A DNA stretch of 64,000 bases from Salinispira pacifica (GTDB lineage Bacteria; Spirochaetota; Spirochaetia; DSM-27196; Salinispiraceae): the NCBI RefSeq assembly GCF_000507245.1, contig NC_023035.1:3453570-3517569 (forward strand). The letters are read 5' to 3'. Shown piece by piece: positions 20,526 to 37,099 of this stretch (positions within the stretch are counted from its first letter, which is position 1; each line of letters opens with the position of its first letter). Under the pieces are notes generated by a model that saw only the letters and a list, made by a program, of their open reading frames with translations, searched no databases and was not told where the DNA came from. Both the position numbers and the translations under genes were made by a program.

Positions 20526-21425
20526 TCAGTCGTTTTCCCGAAGGACCGTGCGAATCACTCTCCGCATCCGTTCAGCTTCGGCTTCATTGCCCCGTTTCAA
20601 GGCGCCCTTCAAATATATCTCCGCCTTCTTTACCAGCATATTACGAATCGCCGTCTGCTGCGGCTCGGAAAAAATATCCGGGGAATTCTCAAGCAGCCGC
20701 TGCAGTGCGGCAATGCGAAACCCTTCGATCTGTCCGTAGCGCTCAGAGAGCTGATCCTGATTCGGCAGTCCCGCCCGCTTTTCCACACAGGGTTCATCAA
20801 CATAACCCGCTTCCTCCCGGGCAGTTACACGCAGCCAGAACTCATAGTCCTCGGCAACCTGAAGATCCTCCCGGAACCCGCCCAGAGTGTTGAACAAGCT
20901 CTTATCCATAACAGCCGTACTGGGGCCGATAATGCATTTCCAGAGTGAGTCGGTAAAAAGATCGCCCCTGCGGCGGTGTTTCTGGCTTTTTTGACTCACC
21001 TCCCGGCGTGAACCGCCGTGATCAAATCGGATCCAGCGCTCCCGGGTGTGGCTTATTCGCGTCTCCCGGTGGAGGGGAAGCTGAAGAGACAGCTTTTCCG
21101 GCAGCCAGATATCATCCGAATCCAGAAACGCAACAAGATCGTGACGGGCCAGTTCGACCCCCCGGTTTCGCGCCCGCCCCGGGTATCCTCCGTGTTCCAA
21201 TGCAAGGGGCAGAAACTCCCGATCAGGCCTGGGCGTCCGGGACTGCAGTTTGTTCCAATGCATCTGGGCGGCCAGCAGTGATCCGTCAGTGGAACCGTCA
21301 TCCGCCACGATGCACTGAATTGCCGTGTCCGGAGACTCCTGATGAAATACGCTATCCAGGGCCTCAAGAAGGTGGTGAGCACGGTTATAGACGGGTATAA
21401 TTACAGAAACGGAATTCAGATTCAC
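20526..21425 (-). CDS. Family 2 glycosyltransferase
   Basis: 299-residue GT-A enzyme using a nucleotide sugar. Landmarks: VSVIIPVYNRAHHLLEALDSV, IVADDGSTDGSL, a GGYPGRARNRGVELARHDLVAFLDSDDIW with the DSDD metal site, and EDYEFWLRVTAREE as the likely catalytic-base region. The C-terminal ~60 residues are helical and charged. It starts at GTG, 38 bases from the divergent M48 gene, and heads the signalling operon, so the operon may join envelope sugar synthesis and cyclic di-GMP. The acceptor is unknown. Confidence 0.9.
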   Translation of the reverse strand: MNLNSVSVIIPVYNRAHHLLEALDSVFHQESPDTAIQCIVADDGSTDGSLLAAQMHWNKLQSRTPRPDREFLPLALEHGGYPGRARNRGVELARHDLVAFLDSDDIWLPEKLSLQLPLHRETRISHTRERWIRFDHGGSRREVSQKSQKHRRRGDLFTDSLWKCIIGPSTAVMDKSLFNTLGGFREDLQVAEDYEFWLRVTAREEAGYVDEPCVEKRAGLPNQDQLSERYGQIEGFRIAALQRLLENSPDIFSEPQQTAIRNMLVKKAEIYLKGALKRGNEAEAERMRRVIRTVLREND

Positions 21426-24489: not shown

Positions 24490-24625
24490 TTAGAGCAGGT
24501 TGGTGATCCTGAGCCTGGGTTCGTTGTATGGATATGAAACCATTTGCAGTATATCTTCAGGATTTCTCCCTGAAACACAGGACAGGAGAGATGGTTTCAC
24601 CAGTCTTGTTCCCCGGGGGTACAAT
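24490..24625 (+). promoter_or_regulatory. Possible promoter and folded leader of the next lipoprotein gene
   Basis: An extended -10 (TGCTATATT, ~24481-24489) leads to a ~130-base leader holding a 9-bp inverted repeat TGAAACCAT/ATGGTTTCA around a small TCAGG/CCTGA hairpin. I match it to no known riboswitch class. Confidence 0.35.
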
Positions 24626-25900
24626 GTGATAGTTCACAAGAATGCCGTAGAGAGCAAAAATACTACATTCTGCATACATAATAGTATCTCCTGTTTCAGC
24701 GTTGTCCTGATTGCATCACTTTTTCTGATGAGCTGCAGTGATCCTTTGAACCTCTTCGGAGAGTATGATGGGGTCAACCTGATTGATGGATATCAATTTG
24801 GTGAAACAGATGCCGAAGGAAACGGTTGGACTGCTGATCACGGTTGGGGCTCAGGCTTCACACAAACATCGGTAAATAACTATATGAACTTTGAGCCGGT
24901 TACCGGAATCGACACAAGTTCCATCCCCGCTCCGGCAGATGGTGATCCGGTACATGTATATCGTCTTGAAATAAAGAATCAATTTATAAACGGGGACTTT
25001 GAATCTGCCGGAGAGCTTTCGAATGTGTTCTATGTTGATCCAGATAGCGGTGTTGAGTCATCGGCATCGATTGAATCGGGAGTTGATAATGAAATAGGCA
25101 CCGGCCAATCAGTCAGGATTAATACGGTTATTGATGATCCAATCGACCAATACTACATTGACCTGGCAACCCGGGTTAATACCTGGTCGGATGCGGATGA
25201 GTACAGTTTTCATTTTGATTTTTATTCATACATAGGGTCTTACTATTTCCAGTTCGATGATAATACTGACCGTCCTGATTTCCTGTATTTCAGTGCCTTA
25301 TCGGAACGAACTGAAACGGTTCTTTCCTTTCCAGGCAACGCCTCGACTGAGAAAAACAACCTCATAAGTGCCGATTCCCGTTACTCGCGCTGGTATCTGG
25401 GAAAGGTGGATGGAACAGTTCAGTTCGACAGCCAGCTGGACAATATCCGTTTTGTACGAGCGGATACCGATTATGCCGTACGCCTTCAGGTACCTTATAC
25501 TCATGAAGACAGCGGTCTGGAGTTGGTTCAGAATGCCCCATACGTCTTCACGCTGTATGTTCGAAAGGATTCCCGGGCTCCGGGAGCAAACAATTTCTAC
25601 TCCGAAATTTTAAATGTCACCGCATCTGATATATATTCCGGCGGAATAGGTGGGGTGACAGTCAGTCAGGATTTTGACATCAGTTCAATTGGAAGCTCAT
25701 GGACGAAAATCCAAATGCCGTTCGACGGTCTTGTCCAGGGTGTCCCTGAAGATGATTCAGCGAAGATGATCGAAATCGCAATAACAGCTTCTGGACTCAA
25801 TAAAACCATCGATGAGGCGGGAAATCTCAGCGTATTTCCCCTTGATGCAGGAGCAGTGCTCATCGCTGCACCTTCCCTTGAGCTAGGCACAATAGAGTAG
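24626..25900 (+). CDS. Surface lipoprotein next to the giant repeat protein
   Basis: About 424 residues from the GTG at 24626. The signal peptide (SCFSVVLIASLFLMSC) is clear and supports this start; the in-frame ATG at 24500 would add an unlikely leader, so the exact start is uncertain. The mature protein is Asp/Ser/Tyr-rich and beta in character; the NQFINGDFESAGELSNV and later FDISSIGSSWTKIQMPFDGL stretches resemble carbohydrate-binding jelly-roll segments. No enzyme motif is seen. It converges with the giant gene and may share its location at the cell surface. Confidence 0.75.
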   Translation: MIVHKNAVESKNTTFCIHNSISCFSVVLIASLFLMSCSDPLNLFGEYDGVNLIDGYQFGETDAEGNGWTADHGWGSGFTQTSVNNYMNFEPVTGIDTSSIPAPADGDPVHVYRLEIKNQFINGDFESAGELSNVFYVDPDSGVESSASIESGVDNEIGTGQSVRINTVIDDPIDQYYIDLATRVNTWSDADEYSFHFDFYSYIGSYYFQFDDNTDRPDFLYFSALSERTETVLSFPGNASTEKNNLISADSRYSRWYLGKVDGTVQFDSQLDNIRFVRADTDYAVRLQVPYTHEDSGLELVQNAPYVFTLYVRKDSRAPGANNFYSEILNVTASDIYSGGIGGVTVSQDFDISSIGSSWTKIQMPFDGLVQGVPEDDSAKMIEIAITASGLNKTIDEAGNLSVFPLDAGAVLIAAPSLELGTIE

Positions 25901-25982: not shown

Positions 25983-28900
25983 TTACTTCACCACTAGAAC
26001 CTTTCGAATCTCATCAACTCCAGGTGCCGTGATTCTGATAAAATAGAATCCTCTGGCTACAGTATCCCCGTTACTGTTCTGTCCGTTCCATGAAATATTA
26101 TGTATCCCTGTTCCCTGTCTTCCACGATGAAGAACTTTCACCAGATCTCCATCGAGGGTAAACACATTAATGAGTACCATTCCCGGACGATCAAGGGTGT
26201 AGTTGAGAACGGTTTGATCTCCTGTCTCAGGATTGATCACATTATTAAGAATGGTTGCTCCGCCGCGTTGCTCAACGATGCCGCCAATTTCTATGCTCCA
26301 GGGCTTCAGGGTTAAGGGTTCATTGGGGTCCTCTATGTTTGCTGCAAGAAGGGGACCTACCCGGTACATGAATTCGACTTCAGCTCCCCTTTCAATTTCC
26401 GGGTCTCCGGCCGGCAACAGATGCTGGGCGATACCGGTGGAGGAATCTGAATTTTGACGATTACTGATCCTTGCCTCAGTATTCGGGTCGGGTATCAGGC
26501 CCGGCACGGCTATCGGTGACCAGTACATTCCCGGTGCTCCATCCAGCAAGAGGTTTTTCTTATCATCAGGAACATTCACATCGAAAAAGAGGTTTATTGG
26601 TAAATCATGGTAACTCGGTGCAGTTATTCCCGACTCAACGGTAATATCCAGATCATCCAATGCTTCGCTCCCGTCGAAGTCTCTGATTGAGCTGAAACCG
26701 GATCCCCGTTCATCATCTTTTTGGATTCCATCGGTAGCCCAAATAGGCCGAACGATTCCTATTCCCACATCGGTAATTCGGCGGTTTGATCCAATTCTGT
26801 ACTGATTAAGGGCTTTATCATAGAAGGTCTCAGTGGAAGGTCCCGGATCCTGGTCCACCGGCCGGATATCAATCAGGAATAGATCATCAGCGCTCAATTC
26901 ACTGTCGAGCAGAAGATATGCCTCCTCAACTCCAGGGGTATTGCTGGGTGAAAGCTCGGCATTGGATTTAAGAACTTCAATGCCTGTTATATTTACTCCG
27001 GGATCAGAGAGTACAAAGAACGTTTCGTCAATTGCTGAGCTAAGAGTTTGGTCAGCCCATACCGGTTCAGTGAATTTAACATAGATTCGGTTACCACTTA
27101 CCGCTGCCAAGGAAAGGATAATTTCCGGAGGTGTGCGCTCAATGGCCAGGAGTTTACCTTTCTCCGGCGAAACCGCCACACCACTCTCTTCAAAGGGATT
27201 GATTGCATAGGGTTCATATTCCGGACCGAATTGGGACGCCATATTTTCCGGTCGACTGCTGGGCATGAGGTTACCCGCAAGATCGGTGAGGTATCCATTT
27301 TGATTATGGGCATAGGCAAGATAGATTTCAGTGAGGTTATCCCAGCCCGCAGTTGCGGCATTATTGATAAATAGTCGGAAATAAGGATCATCCACACCCG
27401 CAATAATAGACCCATCCCGGCGATAAAGCTGGTTTTCTACCGAATCAGTTTGATACTCCCCGCCGAGTTCAGTGCCTGCATTGAAGGCGGAGCTCAATGT
27501 TTCTCCACGTACTCCGAGCCTGATTGATTCGGTAAACGTGGTGAAATTTCCTGCGAACGTTGCGCTGGAATCACGAACACCCCGATAGGTCTCTCCGGCC
27601 TGTTCATCCAGTTGGTCTCCAATACCGGCTGTGCCGTAATACGGCCGGTCGGAAAACAACGGCCCGCCCGGAGCACCTTCATCGTGATCGCTACTGGCGA
27701 CCCAGTTTCCAAGTTCGGCGAGATTGTCTTCACTGAGCTGAAAAGCACCTGCGGAGGCAATCCCGTTATCCTGAATAAATACGTCAAACCCATCGATCAA
27801 CTGAGTAATCGGATTTTCAATAAGTACAATTTCATACGCCTGTGCGATATTGGGGCGAAGACCCGGATACAGGTTAGCCGGGTCGGCTCCCGCCTGGAAT
27901 GCCGAAATTACCGGAGCGGATACATCCCAGAAGTCGAAGTTGGTTCCCGGTGTGTACACACTTCCCGGAAGACCTGTGGACCCAAGGGGGGTAAAAGGTG
28001 TATCAGTTGCCGCAAAACTGGACCCAACCGGATACGCATCAGGCCGCTGCACGGTCTCTGGGCTTTCCATCAGAGATCGTGTGCTCTCTAATGCATCTAT
28101 CCAATTGTCGGATGCCGAACTGTCTGTAATGAAATTATTTTGCTCAACCTCTATTAGTGTTCCCGGCGAATAAGGGTCTGGAACGAGAAAGTGCCAACCC
28201 GGCCAATTGGTACCATCCCAAAAACCTGCAAGGTACACCTCTATGGTTCGATCATCCAATGCATACAAACTGTTGACTGTTTCTTTTCCGGCAGCAGGAA
28301 CATCCCGGTACCCCGTTTGAAAGGGCGGATCAGTGCCCAGGGCATAACTGCTGTTTGTATAGAAAAAATACCCGTTGAGATGCACCACTTCTTCGTCGGT
28401 GGAGTCTGAATCAATATCAATTTGATCATTGAGAAAATCACCGCCGATAGTAACTGCTCCGTCGAATGTGGTATCGGCACGATAGTTGCCGGCACCTATT
28501 ACCGCACCAGGCAGCTGGGAACTGAGGGTAATATCTTCAGAAAAATGCAGCTTGAAAAAATTATGACCGTCCCTTCCGTCACCGGAATTCCTCATTCGAC
28601 CAACTTCCACCGCATAAAGCACGGGACCCATTTTATCTTCTGCGCTTTCATTAACATTGAGATCGGCATCTCCGCTTCCATAGCCACCGCCATCATTGTC
28701 TGCGTACACCATATCCGCACCATTGCTTCCCCGCAGCTCTGCTTTCAACCAGCCTATATCCACAGCACCGATGCCGGGCACATTCCCTTCACTGTCAGTT
28801 CCTGTCCCTGCTCCGCCGGCATCAGTTCCATTGGAATCTGTTGCCCATGTTGCACCATTCAGCTTGAGGTAGATCGTTTTCAGCGCATCAAACGACGCAT

Positions 28901-31900
28901 TATCGGTCCTGCGGTAAGGCTCGGTATCACGATTACCATCGCTATCGTCATCGATGATCTCACTGTATAATGGAAAACTCTGATTTCCTGCCGCCCAATA
29001 TGGGGCAAGATACACCTCTCCCTGGAAGGGTGTGCCGCCTATGTTAATGGAAGCAGCGCTGCTGGTAATCTCCGAATTTGTGTTCATTATTGGTTTGTTG
29101 AATGTAATCCGGGCTACATCATCTTTTACCAGCTCTATCGAATCGACAACTGTTATTACATTGTCGAAACCATAGTTTGGCGTATATTCGCTGTCGAATC
29201 GCACTCTTCCGGCGCCGGCTCCCGAAAAGTCTCCGGAAAAACCACGGGTGTCCGGATTAAAATCCGGCTGAGTGAAAGCTGAAAAATCGTACACACTTGT
29301 GGAGCCGTTTAGGGTTGAGGGATTCGCATCTGCGTCTGTCACAATATTTGCTGCAATAATTGTTTTAGTCTGAACCAGGGCATTGGTAATGGTATTATTT
29401 ATCGACACTGAATACGGGGCTCCCCAATCTGTATTATCACCCGGGGTAGGAGCTGCAGATCTGTTATCGGGTAAATAGAGATTCCAATCGCCCCCCGCGG
29501 AGGGAAGGTCGCTGCTGTTTACATAGAAATTCCCGAAGTTATCGCTTGGTCCGTATGTGTTGTCACCCTGATTATCAACACGGATATTAACCCCGTCTAA
29601 ATCCCCAAAGCCGCCTGTGTACGGTGGCGCAGGCTGATAAGTTTCTATCCTCGGCATATTAATTGCAGACGGATATTTCCATTTATCGGCACCCGCAGCT
29701 CTGTCAGGGTCATCCACTGACGTATTTGCTGCATATCCCAGTACAACCAAATCCTCATCGGTATACAGATCTGTTGGAATTACCGAGTCGCCCCGTAAAT
29801 CAACAGTACCGCCAAAGAGAAAGAAATTATTCACAGATACCGCCGGAATATTTTCAAGTTCTATAACAGCTCCTGCAGAATCGATAAACAGGTCATTAAA
29901 TATAAGGGGCCTTCCATTGCTATCTATATCAATATTCACCGGAACATTCACATATGTCTCGTTCCCGGTAATAAATTGATTGTTCCCAGGCCCGTCGGTT
30001 CGAATACCGCCGCCGCTGAGTTCGATAATATCAGCAGTAAATGTCAGATTCCCCAACTCGTAGATCCCGGCATCATTGATCGGATCATCTGTCCCGATAT
30101 TGCCTTCAATCACAATTTGGGATGAAGCATTTCCGTTATCATCAATAACAAGATCCTCAGATGTAGCAGATACAATGTTCGAGTTGGATGTGAATGTGAC
30201 ATTTGCGGCATTAAAATTTATGGTAACCGTGCCGCTGGAAATTGTGAGGGTATCGTTTATGGCTGCCGGATCGGCATTGAAGGTTCCGAAGGTGATGTCG
30301 CCTGCTGTATTGAAAATTATGCCATGCAGTTCAACATCGTCCTGAAAATTACTGTCAACAGTTGACCCTGAAATTGTCACTTCATCGTGGAACTCAATAC
30401 TTCCTGTGAGTGCATCATCCTGCAGCAATCCTTCACCGGCATCCAGGGTGCTGTTGAATATAACATCACCGTTGCCTGTTATATTCAAGGACCCTGCATC
30501 GCCAGCTGCCAGGTCGACAGTACTATTAAAGCTTGTTGTACCAGCAGAATCAATCGTCAGATTTGTCCCTGTGGCTGCACCCAGGGAAGTATTATTTCCA
30601 ACCGGACCGTCTATAGTAGTAATGTCATCGAAGCGCAGAGTCAGATTCTGGGGGCCATTCAATTGAGAATTAATTGTTAGAGAAGCAGTTCCTGCACCAT
30701 CGGTAAGGAGAACGGATCCCCCCAGGAGTTCAAAGGTATCAGTATTATCGCTACCAACAGTGACAGCTCCGCCGCTGATAAGCGTTAAACCTGCATTAAA
30801 CTCCACATCTTCATTGAATGTATACGAACCTGCGACGAATGTGATATCGCCCGATGCGCTAAATAGACCTGCGCCAACGTCCTGTACAAAGTTGCCGGTT
30901 ACATCCAGGGTACCTTGGAGTGAAACAGTTCCGTTATTATGGTTAAAATCACCGGTAACATCCACATTCCCACCGGTGGAATCAAAATCAATCTCCGTGC
31001 TTAAATTACCGCCAACATTCAGATTGAATGTTGAAATGTGAAGTTCACCATCAGCCACTAGATTACTATTGGTAGTCATTCCATTTAGCAGGTTTACCGT
31101 AGTAGCGGGAGTTATTTCTACAACATTGTAGTTGCCCCCGGATGTCAAGTTTGTGGGTGCCCCTGAGTCAAATGTGACCGTACCTCCGGCCGCGGTGAAA
31201 CCGCCGCTGAAGTTCACTGTAGTAGAGGCGATACTGGTTGTTGCAGATGATTCGGTAAACGCACCTACATTCACCGTAGCACCATTTATGTCTACCGCAC
31301 CGCTTCCAAAGGTTGCGGTCCCGCTGGTCAGGTCACCTGTAATTTCTACATCTCCGGCACCGCCGTTCAGCGTCGAAATACTCACGTTTCCGCCGATTAG
31401 CACGCCACCGCCCCCAAGGCTTAGCGTACCAGTTCCCCCTACTGCGCCGGTCACTCCAAAGGTCTCTGTTCCTGTCTGGCCACCTGCATCAACTGTTCCG
31501 TCAGCACTGATGCTTGCTGCATCAAGCGTGTTGTTTCCCGTGCTTAGCTGTCCCGACGGTATTGTTATCGCGCCAAAATTCGCATCATCCTGCATCTGTA
31601 CATCTGTGGCTCCACCGGTTATATCCGTGGCACCCATATTATTCCCATCAGTCGTTAATGTCTGGGCTCCCCCGCCGTTAAAGCGGATCGTACCACCGTT
31701 GGTGTAGGCTCCGGTGCTGAAGTCTGCATTCCCTGCGACTTCAACCACTCCGCTGCTGTTGTCCAGTGTACCGTTCACATCCACAAGACCGTCTACATCC
31801 AGAGTGTCCCCGTTTGTGCTCAGCTGACTGTCAATCTGCAGCGAACTCATGAGGATATTGCTCTGCATTGTCTGTGTGGCAGTATTCACTGTCACTGAGC

Positions 31901-34900
31901 CAAGATCCTGGGTACCGCCATTTGAATCTGTCAGATCTCCAGCCGCTCCGCCTATCCCTCCAAGGGTGAGAGCCTGAGCGTTATTCCCATAGCTTCCGCC
32001 GCTTTCAATAACAAAATGACGATTCACCGTCAGAGCATCCTGGGGCGTCAGGCCGCCGCCATTCAAAATACGCAGGTCATAGATCTCCGCTCCGCTACTG
32101 GTCAGATTCACTGTTCCTGATATCTGCAGTTCTCCGATTCCCCCGTCCAAACCGCTTATGTCTGCATCGCCTCCCAATGTCAGACTGTAGCTACCAAGGG
32201 TGAGCGTACCGTTTACCGTCAGCAAACCATCCACGGTCATATTGTTTTGAAGTTGCACGTTCGTTGGCCCTGCTACCGTGAAGTCATTGTAGTTCCCATT
32301 GCTGGTAAGGGTGGTTGATCCCGCCCTATCCAGGATAAGTTCTCCGGTATTTGCGGTGAACCCGCCGCTGAAGTTTACTGTCGTCCCGGCAATATTCGTG
32401 GTGGATGACGACTCAGTGAATGAAACAGCACTGGTCACATCACCATCTATGTCCACAGCCCCGCTGCCCAAAGCAACTGTTCCGCTGGTCAGATTTCCGT
32501 GAACACTAATCGTTCCCGCTCCGCCGTTCAGCGTTGACACACTCACATTTCCCTGAAGATCATGAGTCCCGGCGGCCAGGGTAACTGTCCCGGTACCGTT
32601 AACCAGTCCGGTGACAATCAGGCTGTTCCCGTTCATATCCAATGTGTTATTCGCTGTGAGGCTGGCTGCACTCCAGTCCGACTGGGCTGTCACTGCAGCA
32701 GAAACAATCACATTGTTAAATGTATATCCCCCAACGGCTCCTACGTTGCCGCCGGTGGTATCAAAGGTTACCGTTGAACCTCCGTTGGTAAAGGTTGCAC
32801 TGGTCAGACTGCCGCCTATTGCCGTACCGTTGCTTGAGGCGGTAAAACTGTTTACGCTTACATCCCCGTCTATATCTGCAGCTCCGCCGCCCAGGCTTAC
32901 CGTACCAGTTCCCCCTACTGCGCCGGTCACTCCAAATGTCTCTGTTCCTGTCTGGCTGCTGGCATCAACTGTTCCGTCAGCACTCAGGCTGCCGGCGCTG
33001 AAGGAATTTGCTCCAGTGTTCAATGTTCCGGTGACTGTCGCCGCCGATCCAACAGTGGCGTCACTAGCAAGGGTCACTGTCGTTCCGCCGGCTACCGTGA
33101 AGTCATTGTAGTTCCCATTGCTGGTAAGGGTGGTTGATCCCGCCCTATCCAGGATAAGTTCTCCGGTATTTGCGGTGAACCCGCCGCTGAAGTTTACTGT
33201 CGTCCCGGCAATATTCGTGGTGGATGACGACTCAGTGAATGAAACAGCACTGGTCACATCACCATCTATGTCCACAGCCCCGCTGCCCAAAGCAACTGTT
33301 CCGCTGGTCAGATTTCCGTGAACACTAATCGTTCCCGCTCCGCCGTTCAGCGTTGACACACTCACATTTCCCTGAAGATCATGAGTCCCGGCGGCCAGGG
33401 TAACTGTCCCGGTACCGTTAACCAGTCCGGTGACAATCAGGCTGTTCCCGTTCATATCCAATGTGTTATTCGCTGTGAGGCTGGCTGCACTCCAGTCCGA
33501 CTGGGCTGTCACTGCAGCAGAAACAATCACATTGTTAAATGTATATCCCCCAACGGCTCCTACGTTGCCGCCGGTGGTATCAAAGGTTACCGTTGAACCT
33601 CCGTTGGTAAAGGTTGCACTGGTCAGACTGCCGCCTATTGCCGTACCGTTGCTTGAGGCGGTAAAACTGTTTACGCTTACATCCCCGTCTATATCTGCAG
33701 CTCCGCCGCCCAGGCTTACCGTACCAGTTCCCCCTACTGCGCCGGTCACTCCAAATGTCTCTGTTCCTGTCTGGCTGCTGGCATCAACTGTTCCGTCAGC
33801 ACTCAGGCTGCCGGCGCTGAAGGAATTTGCTCCAGTGTTCAATGTTCCGGTGACTGTCGCCGCCGATCCAACAGTGGCGTCACTAGCAAGGGTCACTGTC
33901 GTTCCGCCGGCTACCGTGAAGTCATGGTAGTTCCCATTGCTGGTAAGGGTGGTTGATCCCGCCCTATCCAGGATAAGTTCTCCGGTATTTGCGGTGAACC
34001 CGCCGCTGAAGTTTACTGTCGTCCCGGCAATATTCGTGGTGGATGACGACTCAGTGAATGAAACAGCACTGGTCACATCACCATCTATGTCCACAGCCCC
34101 GCTGCCCAAAGCAACTGTTCCGCTGGTCAGATTTCCGTGAACACTAATCGTTCCCGCTCCGCCGTTCAGCGTTGACACACTCACATTTCCCTGAAGATCA
34201 TGAGTCCCGGCGGCCAGGGTAACTGTCCCGGTACCGTTAACCAGTCCGGTGACAATCAGGCTGTTCCCGTTCATATCCAATGTGTTATTCGCTGTGAGGC
34301 TGGCTGCACTCCAGTCCGACTGGGCTGTCACTGCAGCAGAAACAATCACATTGTTAAATGTATATCCCCCAACGGCTCCTACGTTGCCGCCGGTGGTATC
34401 AAAGGTTACCGTTGAACCTCCGTTGGTAAAGGTTGCACTGGTCAGACTGCCGCCTATTGCCGTACCGTTGCTTGAGGCGGTAAAACTGTTTACGCTTACA
34501 TCCCCGTCTATATCTGCAGCTCCGCCCCCAAGGCTTAGCGTACCAGTTCCCCCTACTGCGCCGGTCACTCCAAAAGTCTCTGTTACTGTCTGGCCACCTG
34601 CATCAACTGTTCCGTCAGCACTGATGCTTGCTGCATCAAGCGTGTTGTTTCCCGTGCTTAGCTGTCCCGACGGTATTGTTATCGCGCCAAAATTCGCATC
34701 ATCCTGCATCTGTACATCTGTGGCTCCACCGGTTATATCCGTGGCACCCATATTATTCCCATCAGTCGTTAATGTCTGGGCTCCCCCGCCGTTAAAGCGG
34801 ATCGTACCACCGTTGGTGTAGGCTCCGGTGCTGAAGTCTGCATTCCCTGCGACTTCAACCACTCCGCTGCTGTTGTCCAGTGTACCGTTCACATCCACAA

Positions 34901-37028
34901 GACCGTCTACATCCAGAGTGTCCCCGTTTGTGCTCAGCTGACTGTCAATCTGCAGCGAACTCATGAGGATATTGCTCTGCATTGTCTGTGTGGCAGTATT
35001 CACTGTCACTGAGCCAAGATCCTGGGTACCGCCATTTGAATCTGTCAGATCTCCAGCCGCTCCGCCTATCCCTCCAAGGGTGAGAGCCTGAGCGTTATTC
35101 CCATAGCTTCCGCCGCTTTCAATAACAAAATGACGATTCACCGTCAGAGCATCCTGGGGCGTCAGGCCGCCGCCATTCAAAATACGCAGGTCATAGATCT
35201 CCGCTCCGCTACTGGTCAGATTCACTGTTCCTGATATCTGCAGTTCTCCGATTCCCCCGTCCAAACCGCTTATGTCTGCATCGCCTCCCAATGTCAGACT
35301 GTAGCTACCAAGGGTGAGCGTACCGTTTACCGTCAGCAAACCATCCACGGTCATATTGTTTTGAAGTTGCACGTTCGTTGGCCCTGCTACCGTGAAGTCA
35401 TTGTAGTTCCCATTGCTGGTAAGGGTGGTTGATCCCGCCCTATCCAGGATAAGTTCTCCGGTATTTGCGGTGAACCCGCCGCTGAAGTTTACTGTCGTCC
35501 CGGCAATATTCGTGGTGGATGACGACTCAGTGAATGAAACAGCACTGGTCACATCACCATCTATGTCCACAGCCCCGCTGCCCAAAGCAACTGTTCCGCT
35601 GGTCAGATTTCCGTGAACACTAATCGTTCCCGCTCCGCCGTTCAGCGTTGACACACTCACATTTCCCTGAAGATCATGAGTCCCGGCGGCCAGGGTAACT
35701 GTCCCGGTACCGTTAACCAGTCCGGTGACAATCAGGCTGTTCCCGTTCATATCCAATGTGTTATTCGCTGTGAGGCTGGCTGCACTCCAGTCCGACTGGG
35801 CTGTCACTGCAGCAGAAACAATCACATTGTTAAATGTATATCCCCCAACGGCTCCTACGTTGCCGCCGGTGGTATCAAAGGTTACCGTTGAACCTCCGTT
35901 GGTAAAGGTTGCACTGGTCAGACTGCCGCCTATTGCCGTACCGTTGCTTGAGGCGGTAAAACTGTTTACGCTTACATCCCCGTCTATATCTGCAGCTCCG
36001 CCGCCCAGGCTTACCGTACCAGTTCCCCCTACTGCGCCGGTCACTCCAAATGTCTCTGTTCCTGTCTGGCCGCCTGCATCAACTGTTCCGTCAGCACTCA
36101 GGCTGCCGGCGCTGAAGGAATTTGCTCCAGTGTTCAATGTTCCGGTGACTGTCGCCGCCGATCCAACAGTGGCATCATTTGAAAGGTTCACCGTCGTTCC
36201 GCCGGCAACCGTGAAGTCATTGTAGTTCCCATTGCTGGTAAGGGTGGTTGATCCCACCCTATCAAGGATAAGTTCTCCGGTATTTGCGGTGAATCCTCCG
36301 CTGAAATCAACGCTTGCTCCGGCAATATTCGTGGTGGATGACGACTCAGTGAATGAAACAGCACTGGTCACATCACCATTTATATCAACGGCACCTGCTC
36401 CGGAGGTGAATGTTCCAACCGACACATTCCCGCCTATGCTTGCAGATCCGCCGCCAAGAAGAACTGTTCCCGAGCCCGATACGTCTCCGCCAATGGACAC
36501 AGCCCCCGTAGACCCGGAAACATCTATTGTCCCGTCGGTGTTGGTGTTGATGCTTCCTCCGGTAGTGAATGTTGCGGCTCCAGTTAAGGCAAGAGTTCGG
36601 CCGTTGTTTATGGAAAGACTTCCGGCACTTATAGTAATTGCCCCGCTAATATCAGCGCCGGCGTTGCTCATATCCAGGACGCCGGTAACTGAGAGGGTGC
36701 CCGGACCTAAAAGGCCATCTATAATAGCAGCAGCATCAGCGGTAAGAGTATTACCGTTCAGATCGATGGTTGTACCTGCGGTACCAAAAAGATTATTAGC
36801 AAAACCATCTCCGGTGAGTCGAACCGTGACAGGAGCAGCACTCAAATCAACATTCTCGGCCGGAGTCGGCAGAGTATTTCCGTTCCAGTTCAGAGCATCA
36901 TTCCAAGTCAGATTGTCCCCGCCGCCATCCCATGTTTTTTGGGCGAAAACAGCCGCCGGTAATGCAATAAGCACGCAAACTACGAGACATAATCTGTAAA
37001 CATGTGAAAACGCTGTGTGTGCACCCAT
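25983..37028 (-). CDS. Giant repeat-rich exported protein (3681 residues)
   Basis: Signal peptide from the ATG at 37028 (LCLVVCVLIALPAAVFAQ), which lies downstream of a good promoter; an earlier ATG at 37094 overlaps the -35 box. Mature start WDGGGDNLTWNDALNWNG recalls autotransporter passenger domains. Residues ~40-2000 are Gly/Thr/Ser/Asn-rich short beta-strand repeats, a probable beta-helix. They contain near-identical 273-residue units (three in tandem with the first shortened, one separate) and two 288-residue units. Then come Ig-like/SwmB-type segments (e.g. ARITFNKPIMNT, VYVKFTEPVW-like). The last ~90 residues (LINVFTLDGDLVKVLHRGRQ to RKVLVVK) match FlgD-Ig/type A sorting domains. Likely adhesion or surface structure; function inferred. 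Confidence 0.88.
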   Translation of the reverse strand: MGAHTAFSHVYRLCLVVCVLIALPAAVFAQKTWDGGGDNLTWNDALNWNGNTLPTPAENVDLSAAPVTVRLTGDGFANNLFGTAGTTIDLNGNTLTADAAAIIDGLLGPGTLSVTGVLDMSNAGADISGAITISAGSLSINNGRTLALTGAATFTTGGSINTNTDGTIDVSGSTGAVSIGGDVSGSGTVLLGGGSASIGGNVSVGTFTSGAGAVDINGDVTSAVSFTESSSTTNIAGASVDFSGGFTANTGELILDRVGSTTLTSNGNYNDFTVAGGTTVNLSNDATVGSAATVTGTLNTGANSFSAGSLSADGTVDAGGQTGTETFGVTGAVGGTGTVSLGGGAADIDGDVSVNSFTASSNGTAIGGSLTSATFTNGGSTVTFDTTGGNVGAVGGYTFNNVIVSAAVTAQSDWSAASLTANNTLDMNGNSLIVTGLVNGTGTVTLAAGTHDLQGNVSVSTLNGGAGTISVHGNLTSGTVALGSGAVDIDGDVTSAVSFTESSSTTNIAGTTVNFSGGFTANTGELILDRAGSTTLTSNGNYNDFTVAGPTNVQLQNNMTVDGLLTVNGTLTLGSYSLTLGGDADISGLDGGIGELQISGTVNLTSSGAEIYDLRILNGGGLTPQDALTVNRHFVIESGGSYGNNAQALTLGGIGGAAGDLTDSNGGTQDLGSVTVNTATQTMQSNILMSSLQIDSQLSTNGDTLDVDGLVDVNGTLDNSSGVVEVAGNADFSTGAYTNGGTIRFNGGGAQTLTTDGNNMGATDITGGATDVQMQDDANFGAITIPSGQLSTGNNTLDAASISADGTVDAGGQTVTETFGVTGAVGGTGTLSLGGGAADIDGDVSVNSFTASSNGTAIGGSLTSATFTNGGSTVTFDTTGGNVGAVGGYTFNNVIVSAAVTAQSDWSAASLTANNTLDMNGNSLIVTGLVNGTGTVTLAAGTHDLQGNVSVSTLNGGAGTISVHGNLTSGTVALGSGAVDIDGDVTSAVSFTESSSTTNIAGTTVNFSGGFTANTGELILDRAGSTTLTSNGNYHDFTVAGGTTVTLASDATVGSAATVTGTLNTGANSFSAGSLSADGTVDASSQTGTETFGVTGAVGGTGTVSLGGGAADIDGDVSVNSFTASSNGTAIGGSLTSATFTNGGSTVTFDTTGGNVGAVGGYTFNNVIVSAAVTAQSDWSAASLTANNTLDMNGNSLIVTGLVNGTGTVTLAAGTHDLQGNVSVSTLNGGAGTISVHGNLTSGTVALGSGAVDIDGDVTSAVSFTESSSTTNIAGTTVNFSGGFTANTGELILDRAGSTTLTSNGNYNDFTVAGGTTVTLASDATVGSAATVTGTLNTGANSFSAGSLSADGTVDASSQTGTETFGVTGAVGGTGTVSLGGGAADIDGDVSVNSFTASSNGTAIGGSLTSATFTNGGSTVTFDTTGGNVGAVGGYTFNNVIVSAAVTAQSDWSAASLTANNTLDMNGNSLIVTGLVNGTGTVTLAAGTHDLQGNVSVSTLNGGAGTISVHGNLTSGTVALGSGAVDIDGDVTSAVSFTESSSTTNIAGTTVNFSGGFTANTGELILDRAGSTTLTSNGNYNDFTVAGPTNVQLQNNMTVDGLLTVNGTLTLGSYSLTLGGDADISGLDGGIGELQISGTVNLTSSGAEIYDLRILNGGGLTPQDALTVNRHFVIESGGSYGNNAQALTLGGIGGAAGDLTDSNGGTQDLGSVTVNTATQTMQSNILMSSLQIDSQLSTNGDTLDVDGLVDVNGTLDNSSGVVEVAGNADFSTGAYTNGGTIRFNGGGAQTLTTDGNNMGATDITGGATDVQMQDDANFGAITIPSGQLSTGNNTLDAASISADGTVDAGGQTGTETFGVTGAVGGTGTLSLGGGGVLIGGNVSISTLNGGAGDVEITGDLTSGTATFGSGAVDINGATVNVGAFTESSATTSIASTTVNFSGGFTAAGGTVTFDSGAPTNLTSGGNYNVVEITPATTVNLLNGMTTNSNLVADGELHISTFNLNVGGNLSTEIDFDSTGGNVDVTGDFNHNNGTVSLQGTLDVTGNFVQDVGAGLFSASGDITFVAGSYTFNEDVEFNAGLTLISGGAVTVGSDNTDTFELLGGSVLLTDGAGTASLTINSQLNGPQNLTLRFDDITTIDGPVGNNTSLGAATGTNLTIDSAGTTSFNSTVDLAAGDAGSLNITGNGDVIFNSTLDAGEGLLQDDALTGSIEFHDEVTISGSTVDSNFQDDVELHGIIFNTAGDITFGTFNADPAAINDTLTISSGTVTINFNAANVTFTSNSNIVSATSEDLVIDDNGNASSQIVIEGNIGTDDPINDAGIYELGNLTFTADIIELSGGGIRTDGPGNNQFITGNETYVNVPVNIDIDSNGRPLIFNDLFIDSAGAVIELENIPAVSVNNFFLFGGTVDLRGDSVIPTDLYTDEDLVVLGYAANTSVDDPDRAAGADKWKYPSAINMPRIETYQPAPPYTGGFGDLDGVNIRVDNQGDNTYGPSDNFGNFYVNSSDLPSAGGDWNLYLPDNRSAAPTPGDNTDWGAPYSVSINNTITNALVQTKTIIAANIVTDADANPSTLNGSTSVYDFSAFTQPDFNPDTRGFSGDFSGAGAGRVRFDSEYTPNYGFDNVITVVDSIELVKDDVARITFNKPIMNTNSEITSSAASINIGGTPFQGEVYLAPYWAAGNQSFPLYSEIIDDDSDGNRDTEPYRRTDNASFDALKTIYLKLNGATWATDSNGTDAGGAGTGTDSEGNVPGIGAVDIGWLKAELRGSNGADMVYADNDGGGYGSGDADLNVNESAEDKMGPVLYAVEVGRMRNSGDGRDGHNFFKLHFSEDITLSSQLPGAVIGAGNYRADTTFDGAVTIGGDFLNDQIDIDSDSTDEEVVHLNGYFFYTNSSYALGTDPPFQTGYRDVPAAGKETVNSLYALDDRTIEVYLAGFWDGTNWPGWHFLVPDPYSPGTLIEVEQNNFITDSSASDNWIDALESTRSLMESPETVQRPDAYPVGSSFAATDTPFTPLGSTGLPGSVYTPGTNFDFWDVSAPVISAFQAGADPANLYPGLRPNIAQAYEIVLIENPITQLIDGFDVFIQDNGIASAGAFQLSEDNLAELGNWVASSDHDEGAPGGPLFSDRPYYGTAGIGDQLDEQAGETYRGVRDSSATFAGNFTTFTESIRLGVRGETLSSAFNAGTELGGEYQTDSVENQLYRRDGSIIAGVDDPYFRLFINNAATAGWDNLTEIYLAYAHNQNGYLTDLAGNLMPSSRPENMASQFGPEYEPYAINPFEESGVAVSPEKGKLLAIERTPPEIILSLAAVSGNRIYVKFTEPVWADQTLSSAIDETFFVLSDPGVNITGIEVLKSNAELSPSNTPGVEEAYLLLDSELSADDLFLIDIRPVDQDPGPSTETFYDKALNQYRIGSNRRITDVGIGIVRPIWATDGIQKDDERGSGFSSIRDFDGSEALDDLDITVESGITAPSYHDLPINLFFDVNVPDDKKNLLLDGAPGMYWSPIAVPGLIPDPNTEARISNRQNSDSSTGIAQHLLPAGDPEIERGAEVEFMYRVGPLLAANIEDPNEPLTLKPWSIEIGGIVEQRGGATILNNVINPETGDQTVLNYTLDRPGMVLINVFTLDGDLVKVLHRGRQGTGIHNISWNGQNSNGDTVARGFYFIRITAPGVDEIRKVLVVK
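31417..32280 (-). repeat. 864-bp unit, copy 2, in the giant gene
   Basis: An 864-bp (288-codon) stretch encoding PTNVQLQNNMTV through the LGSVTVNTATQTMQSN and DVQMQDDANFG segments. It repeats almost exactly at 34531-35394, 3114 bp away. The length is a multiple of three, so gain or loss keeps the frame. Confidence 0.88.
32281..34530 (-). repeat. Tandem 819-bp units in the giant gene (two full, one partial)
   Basis: Units at 32281-33099, 33100-33918 and 33919-34530 (shortened where it runs into the 864-bp block). By eye I find one base difference between the first two and the third over most of the unit (TCATTG against TCATGG, giving NYN/NYH). Each is 273 codons. Identity extends over silent positions, so the copies are recent or homogenised. 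Confidence 0.9.
34531..35394 (-). repeat. 864-bp unit, copy 1, in the giant gene
   Basis: Partner of 31417-32280 at a constant offset of 3114 bp. Small differences occur near the low-coordinate end (e.g. GTCTCTGTTACTG against GTCTCTGTTCCTG). Confidence 0.88.
35395..36213 (-). repeat. Separate fourth 819-bp unit in the giant gene
   Basis: Matches the tandem units over most of its length. It differs in a few clustered positions near the high-coordinate end (GGCCGCCTGC for GGCTGCTGGC, and CATCATTTGAAAGG for CGTCACTAGCAAGG). Confidence 0.87.
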
Positions 37029-37070
37029 AAATACCCCGCAGGTGGAAAAAAGAATTCGATTTTCTCTATA

Positions 37071-37099
37071 ACTATACAACGCATACGGGAACATTCCAA
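37071..37099 (-). promoter_or_regulatory. Promoter of the giant surface-protein gene
   Basis: Minus strand: TTGGAA (37099-37094), 17-base spacer, TATAGT (37076-37071). The start of transcription near 37064 leaves a ~36-base leader before the ATG at 37028. Confidence 0.72.

Follow-up and report, generated by a model that had tools for sequence, protein, structure and literature searches.

A divergent SprA homologue and a sorting-signal-like C-terminus suggest a type IX-like export route in spirochaetes

The locus

The window analysed here, a stretch of 64,000 nucleotides from the genome of Salinispira pacifica (3.78 Mb, one contig), carries on its minus strand an unusually long open frame. Its product, which we call the giant, would be a repeat-rich protein of 3703 amino acids. 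The features that matter for the argument are listed below in window coordinates.

25983..37094, minus strand: open frame of the giant repeat-rich protein, 3703 aa
36942..37028, minus strand: probable Sec signal peptide MGAHTAFSHVYRLCLVVCVLIALPAAVFA, recognized by eye in the translation, with a start at residue 23 assumed
31095..36488, minus strand: 300-nt repeats inside the giant, four copies with 98-100% identity and two with 60-75%
25983..26300, minus strand: C-terminal Ig-like domain resembling a sorting signal (FlgD_ig, TIGR04183, alignment A4, AlphaFold model)
24500..25900, plus strand: lipoprotein (lipobox ...LFLMSC, by eye), convergent with the giant, true start uncertain; a recurrent partner gene
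20526-21425, minus strand: family 2-like glycosyltransferase, by eye

The residues that a first-pass annotation had quoted from the end of this protein are borne out: the minus-strand translation of 25983-26600 contains LINVFTLDGDLVKVL, GIHNISWNGQNSNGDTVARG, FYFIRI and RKVLVVK, followed by a stop codon. Within the body of the giant, the near-identical 300-nt copies are spaced by 819 and 1476 nt, and their identity is a sign of recent internal duplication. A Pfam scan of the giant yields no barrel family and a weak match to Invasin_D4 that stays below cut-off. When the C-terminal part of 1072 aa was compared with genome contigs, four stretches were returned and none was confirmed; a tblastn search of plasmids gave no result. 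Genes for family 2-like glycosyltransferases (by eye) lie within a few kb of the giant in several genomes, elsewhere at L092:16048, L093:14808, L096:6933 and L176:15573.

The lipoprotein has no Pfam match, and its homologues accompany the giant in many genomes. With a profile built from six seeds, the gene of the window included, a homologue is found beside the tail in 35 of the 67 named loci that have at least 1500 bp of downstream sequence (the other 32 are without one) and in 4 of 13 shorter loci. In every case it has the opposite orientation; its distance from the tail is 1-227 bp in 37 of 39 loci and 1691 and 1935 bp in the remaining two. Our guess would be that this lipoprotein acts in anchoring the giant.

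Sequence of the C-terminal tail

The tail had initially been placed at 25983-26260. An alignment with 13 other giants shows a conserved unit that runs from about a W (26300) via QRGGATILNNVINP to the end of the protein. The domain is thus real and conserved, but the earlier coordinates were too short.

Which family the tail belongs to is less straightforward. It matches FlgD_ig (PF13860) with 32.2 bits (E 1e-07, cut-off 27). The model of the type IX secretion system (T9SS) tail, TIGR04183 (Por_Secre_tail, cut-off 23), scores the tail at 25.1 bits when the genome is searched, at 22.2 bits in a scan of 405 aa and at 16.8 bits in one of the whole protein; hence the tail straddles the T9SS cut-off. 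The first reading of the tail as a T9SS-type sorting domain is therefore upheld by the genome search but not by the two scans, and PF18962, the T9SS tail of Pfam, has no match in the giant. As a yardstick, TIGR04183 at E 10 matches 13 of 14 control genomes, with one over cut-off, and at E 0.001 two of 14.

Of the two families, FlgD_ig gives the tail the higher score, and the only solved chains found from it by sequence are those of FlgD. FlgD_ig has 13 matches in the genome: one is the giant, and the other 12 are inside two proteins with OmpA-like ends, so that this type of domain also occurs away from a terminus. These observations would suit a different explanation, namely that the tail is a generic Ig domain of the FlgD type packing on a periplasmic or surface body, that the giant is exported otherwise or not at all, and that SprA (see below) serves other cargo. 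Yet the giant is the sole TIGR04183 match in the genome, and neither this model nor the profile of our alignment A4 detects a second tail there. The first-pass annotation had proposed a search for other proteins with the same C-terminus, and that search comes back to the giant. It had also remarked that its idea would fail if the domain were widespread in non-exported proteins; FlgD_ig is indeed found internally in two other proteins of the genome. Also against a generic domain is its position: it lies at the extreme C-terminus, with a conserved end, in 14 of 14 aligned giants. We regard the generic explanation as unlikely, and return to it with the genome counts.

Predicted fold of the tail

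In an AlphaFold model of the C-terminal 139 residues, pLDDT exceeds 90 from about residue 51 and is below 50 for the first 15 residues. A Foldseek search with this model ranks a PorZ structure first (6.1e-4), has FlgD chains among its top matches and includes the tail of RemA bound to the T9SS translocon at 0.022. After structural realignment the PorU tail has the best Z (10.1, 2.4 A over 88 residues); for PorZ, with a Z of 9.0, the aligned part is its tail, residues 686-776. It is residues 47-139 of the model that match the PorU and PorZ tails. These scores should be read against the commonness of Ig-like folds, since 870 of 997 chains have a Z of at least 5 and there are ties at the top of the list; the modeled fold agrees with a T9SS signal and is no proof of one.

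The same model bears on whether the giant could be a classical autotransporter or a substrate of two-partner secretion. Its repeat-rich body is reminiscent of filamentous adhesins, and the Invasin_D4 hint, weak as it is, points the same way. However, the model of the C-terminus shows strands, alignable with Ig-like tails, and no barrel, the Pfam scan of the giant has no barrel family, and among ten neighbouring genes scanned with Pfam (two of them without any match) no autotransporter barrel or two-partner pore was recognized. A linked pore of this kind, which had been named as grounds for abandoning the idea of a sorting signal, is thus not in evidence among those ten. We reject this explanation as very improbable.

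The giants of the class and of the phylum

Among 392 sampled genomes of the phylum, TIGR04183 matches 144 at E 0.001 and 123 over cut-off. In the class to which S. pacifica belongs the matches are mostly single, many of them in very long frames. The ends of the giants from 13 other genomes align with ours at 38-53% identity (alignment A4, n=14), with 19 invariant columns; these include N-N-V of ILNNV, W and G of WDG, R-G and Y of VARGxYF, and E, R and V within the last eleven residues. A4 does not include L094 and L098, two of the first 15 giant loci. They lie on contigs of G285 and G251 and match the T9SS tail model, but have tails or frames that look Bacteroidota-like by eye and are probably contamination.

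With the A4 profile and a limit of E 1e-3, 98 of 198 class genomes have a match. In 80 of the 198 the tail is strong (threshold 1e-10; all are at E 1.3e-17 or better), and the 18 genomes with weak matches (E 2.6e-8 to 8.7e-4) were kept out of that count. A single strong match is the rule (76 of 80); four genomes (G447, G465, G471, G478) have two. Among named genomes the tail has 264 relatives, and the best 80 of these 264 comprise 79 titled as spirochaetes, one under the improbable title Borreliella garinii, and one from Planctomycetota. The genome G165 (2,843,201 bases), which we take to be that of T. denticola ATCC 35405, carries both a tail-bearing giant and a SprA-like protein.

A divergent SprA homologue

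The search for SprA, PorV and PorU that the first-pass annotation had suggested turned up a divergent SprA homologue and a PorV-family protein, but no PorU. The SprA candidate is the following.

L120:5439-10664, minus strand: SprA homologue of S. pacifica, 1741 aa (profile of 21 sister-class SprAs, 67 bits, E 1.3e-19)

The curated SprA model TIGR04189 has no match in this genome. Across the phylum, 100 of 392 genomes have a match up to E 1, part of these at chance level, and none of the 392 exceeds its cut-off of 200 bits; in sister classes it picks up homologues in frames of about 1900-2000 aa, the best with 102.7 bits. Profile A2, built from 11 sister-class sequences and two of the class itself (L059 and L061), 13 spirochaete sequences in all, matches the solved SprA of Flavobacterium, 6h3i, at E 6.7e-26. 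With E <1e-5 throughout, it also has matches in 116 of 198 class genomes, S. pacifica being among them with two collinear pieces (E 5.1e-20 and 5.2e-17).

To exclude that L059 and L061 drove this result, a profile was made of the 21 sister-class sequences only. It detects every one of the 18 class sequences in alignment A6, the protein listed above among them (the weakest at E 1.3e-4), and L059, while matching none of 141 other frames and none of 18 reversed sequences. It misses the SprA-like proteins of G165 and L061. Starting from S. pacifica SprA alone (phmmer), no solved structure is matched, and two profiles restricted to the class, of 5 and 18 rows, leave 6h3i unreached: one has no match among solved structures and the other has two endoglucanase rows only (E 0.26 and 0.30). 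The link to SprA is consequently a transitive one that passes through the sister classes. Judged by these profiles, the genome encodes a divergent homologue of SprA/Sov, which is the outer-membrane channel of the T9SS.

Downstream of this gene follow a protein of 461 aa, a FecR-domain protein and a mutL-like frame (by eye), an order that is also seen in L121 and L125; in L124, L127 and L128, SprA is found together with frames of 450-470 aa and 740-760 aa. The model of the 461-aa protein, of moderate confidence (pLDDT 74), is an outer-membrane barrel. We do not claim it as PorV, since its best fold match is AlgE with a TM-score of only 0.38.

In G116, a stop-free frame of 1971 aa (L132:4595-10510, minus strand) spans both a dinB-like gene (DNA polymerase IV-like, by eye) and the SprA homologue, and frames of similar length are found at the SprA match in G070, G081 and G121 of the same genus. 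The shared frame of G116 could be either a fusion or the result of an internal non-ATG start.

UPF0164 as a PorV-like protein

L169:8140-9450: PorV-like protein of S. pacifica, UPF0164 member, 159 bits

The PorV family model NF033709 has one match in the genome (73 bits, E 3.8e-20), below its cut-off of 90. Among 18 chosen genomes, all match at E 1 and seven exceed the cut-off. The spirochaete UPF0164 proteins (PF03687) are described as FadL-like in Treponema. They are present in 118 of 198 class genomes, with a single match in 114 of the 118. The genes for UPF0164, SprA and the giant occupy three unlinked places in the S. pacifica genome. The UPF0164 gene points away from two large genes, one of about 1000-1200 aa and one of 1300-1500 aa, and this divergent layout is conserved from S. 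pacifica (L169:1-9450) to G165 and is also seen in L170, L172 and L174.

A tie between tail and PorV is visible in the sister classes. Six genomes outside our class have at least 14 tails each by TIGR04183, and PorV-family matches at E 1 are numerous, with 59 in G012 and 74 in G025. A PorV-family match lies 71-402 bp downstream, on the same strand, of at least 20 of 57 tails among the matches listed; the 57 are the tails listed by TIGR04183 in genomes also searched for PorV, and the figure of 20 is rough and probably a lower bound. Among the same matches, none lies in any other position within 600 bp of a tail. PorV genes situated right behind tails link the two within the same phylum. In G012, G025, G002, G163 and others the PorV-family matches run into dozens, and several of these come immediately after tail-bearing genes; it is as if cargoes of the sister classes owned a PorV of their own.

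Co-occurrence in the class

The counts of SprA, tail and UPF0164 were each made over 198 class genomes, taken as the same set. Strong tail and SprA are both present in 75 genomes and both missing in 77, with five that have only the tail and 41 that have only SprA (Fisher p 2e-18, uncorrected for phylogeny). All five come from draft assemblies with a completeness of 58-84%. For SprA and UPF0164, presence or absence coincides in 182 of 198 genomes (109 with both, 73 with neither, seven with SprA only and nine with UPF0164 only, again uncorrected for phylogeny).

The 41 SprA genomes, out of 116, that are without a strong tail are the remaining point in favour of the generic FlgD-type domain, against which stand the 75 of 80 tail genomes that do have SprA. 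All 41 are in at least 30 contigs by rounded numbers, and 14 of them have a weak tail match. A giant could be lost in assembly, its gene being repeat-rich; true absence or a different cargo is possible too.

Association among genomes might also arise if SprA, UPF0164 and the tail were ancestral in the class and were lost together lineage by lineage, with no functional link between them. Absences do cluster by lineage, as in G076 and G101, two small genomes from the same genus. Moreover, G056, G111 and G146 carry UPF0164 with no SprA match, meaning that UPF0164 can exist without SprA. But within the single genus g11, among the genomes listed, G070, G081, G116 and G121 have SprA and a strong tail together, whereas neither G111 nor G146 appears among the SprA matches, and their tail matches are weak. 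Joint loss would also leave the adjacency of tails and PorV genes in sister classes unaccounted for. We give little credence to joint loss as the whole story.

G056 (1.1 Mb), presumably T. pallidum, has five UPF0164 copies and is absent among both SprA and tail matches.

Parts that were not recognized

The PorU sortase (peptidase C25, PF01364) has no match in the S. pacifica genome and is over cut-off in one of 18 genomes (G164). The motor proteins GldM (PorM, TIGR03517) and GldL (PorL, TIGR03513) are over cut-off in none of the 18, the many-tail genomes of sister classes included. The GldM and GldL matches in our genome (best E 0.10 and 0.0026) have at most 18.3 bits, far below the cut-offs, and we do not count them as evidence; weak matches of the GldM and GldL kind are seen in 2 and 9 of 14 control genomes, respectively. 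Either these three components are too divergent to be detected, or the pathway runs without them.

The proposed pathway

We consider it likely that spirochaetes possess a T9SS-like outer-membrane translocon of the SprA type and that this tail serves as the signal for export through it. The undescribed export route that the first-pass annotation had raised as a possibility thus gains a SprA homologue and a PorV-family protein, both strongly co-occurring with the tail, but not PorU, GldL or GldM. The following is the most likely course of events, as suggested by homology, predicted fold and co-occurrence. Sec would carry the giant across the inner membrane, as the signal peptide recognized by eye suggests. 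The divergent SprA and the PorV-like UPF0164 protein would then recognize the folded Ig-like domain at the C-terminus, after which, by analogy with Bacteroidota, the giant would pass through SprA and be led to the surface by the UPF0164 protein. The tail would probably not be cut, and it may hold the giant at the surface, possibly together with the neighbouring lipoprotein. PorU and PorZ are described as keeping their own tails uncleaved on secretion (PMC11285876). As no PorU sortase was found, the tail of the giant probably stays on in the same manner.

The 3703-aa giant is, in our proposal, the single cargo, a protein of surface type, and essentially one cargo of this tail type would be exported per genome in the class. 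We are also inclined, with somewhat less assurance, towards a wider picture. Spirochaetes, oral treponemes included, would have a minimal type 9-like machine that consists of SprA and the PorV-like UPF0164, with no recognizable motor or sortase. In our class it would handle essentially one giant cargo per genome, in sister classes many, often with an adjoining PorV, and the UPF0164 expansion of the T. pallidum-size genome (G056) would be a repurposed remnant.

Comparison with known systems

One paper states that T9SS is absent in T. denticola (PMC11833123), and recent papers state the same for organisms outside the Bacteroidota group. In the full-text literature within reach, which excludes most subscription journals and all preprints, we found no description of SprA or of a T9SS cargo in spirochaetes. 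If our proposal is correct, a divergent SprA with one dedicated giant would bring the system into a phylum that includes pathogens of humans and animals, in a minimal version where motor and sortase may be dispensable or replaced. It would also provide a working hypothesis for UPF0164 proteins and a testable route for treponeme surface proteins. The suggestion is that a reduced form of this export route, reports of which have come from other phyla alone, exists in many spirochaetes.

The closest known system is the T9SS of Bacteroidota with its type A sorting domain (TIGR04183), SprA/Sov and PorV. The likeness consists of a C-terminal Ig-like domain with a basic last residue, a SprA homologue, a PorV-family protein and a large cargo of surface type. 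The differences are that spirochaete SprA is highly divergent (over the curated cut-off in none of 392 genomes), that PorU, GldL and GldM were not recognized in S. pacifica, and that the host phylum is Spirochaetota, with essentially one cargo of the tail type per genome in our class. Because PorU, GldL and GldM are unrecognized, we file the system as a T9SS-like variant and not as a member of T9SS.

Type V autotransporters differ in that they have a C-terminal beta-barrel, in place of which the giant has, by its model, a small strand domain in the last 139 residues. The PorV-like protein of S. pacifica is a member of UPF0164 (PF03687); what differs is the role proposed here, that of the PorV of a SprA system, and the five copies in G056 stand without a SprA match. 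Finally, the Ig-like domain of FlgD (PF13860) resembles the tail in fold, and the tail is over the cut-off of that family. FlgD, however, is a short protein of the flagellar hook cap, whereas the giant has 3703 aa, is rich in repeats, begins with an apparent signal peptide and ends in a tail that is conserved as a family specific to its lineage.
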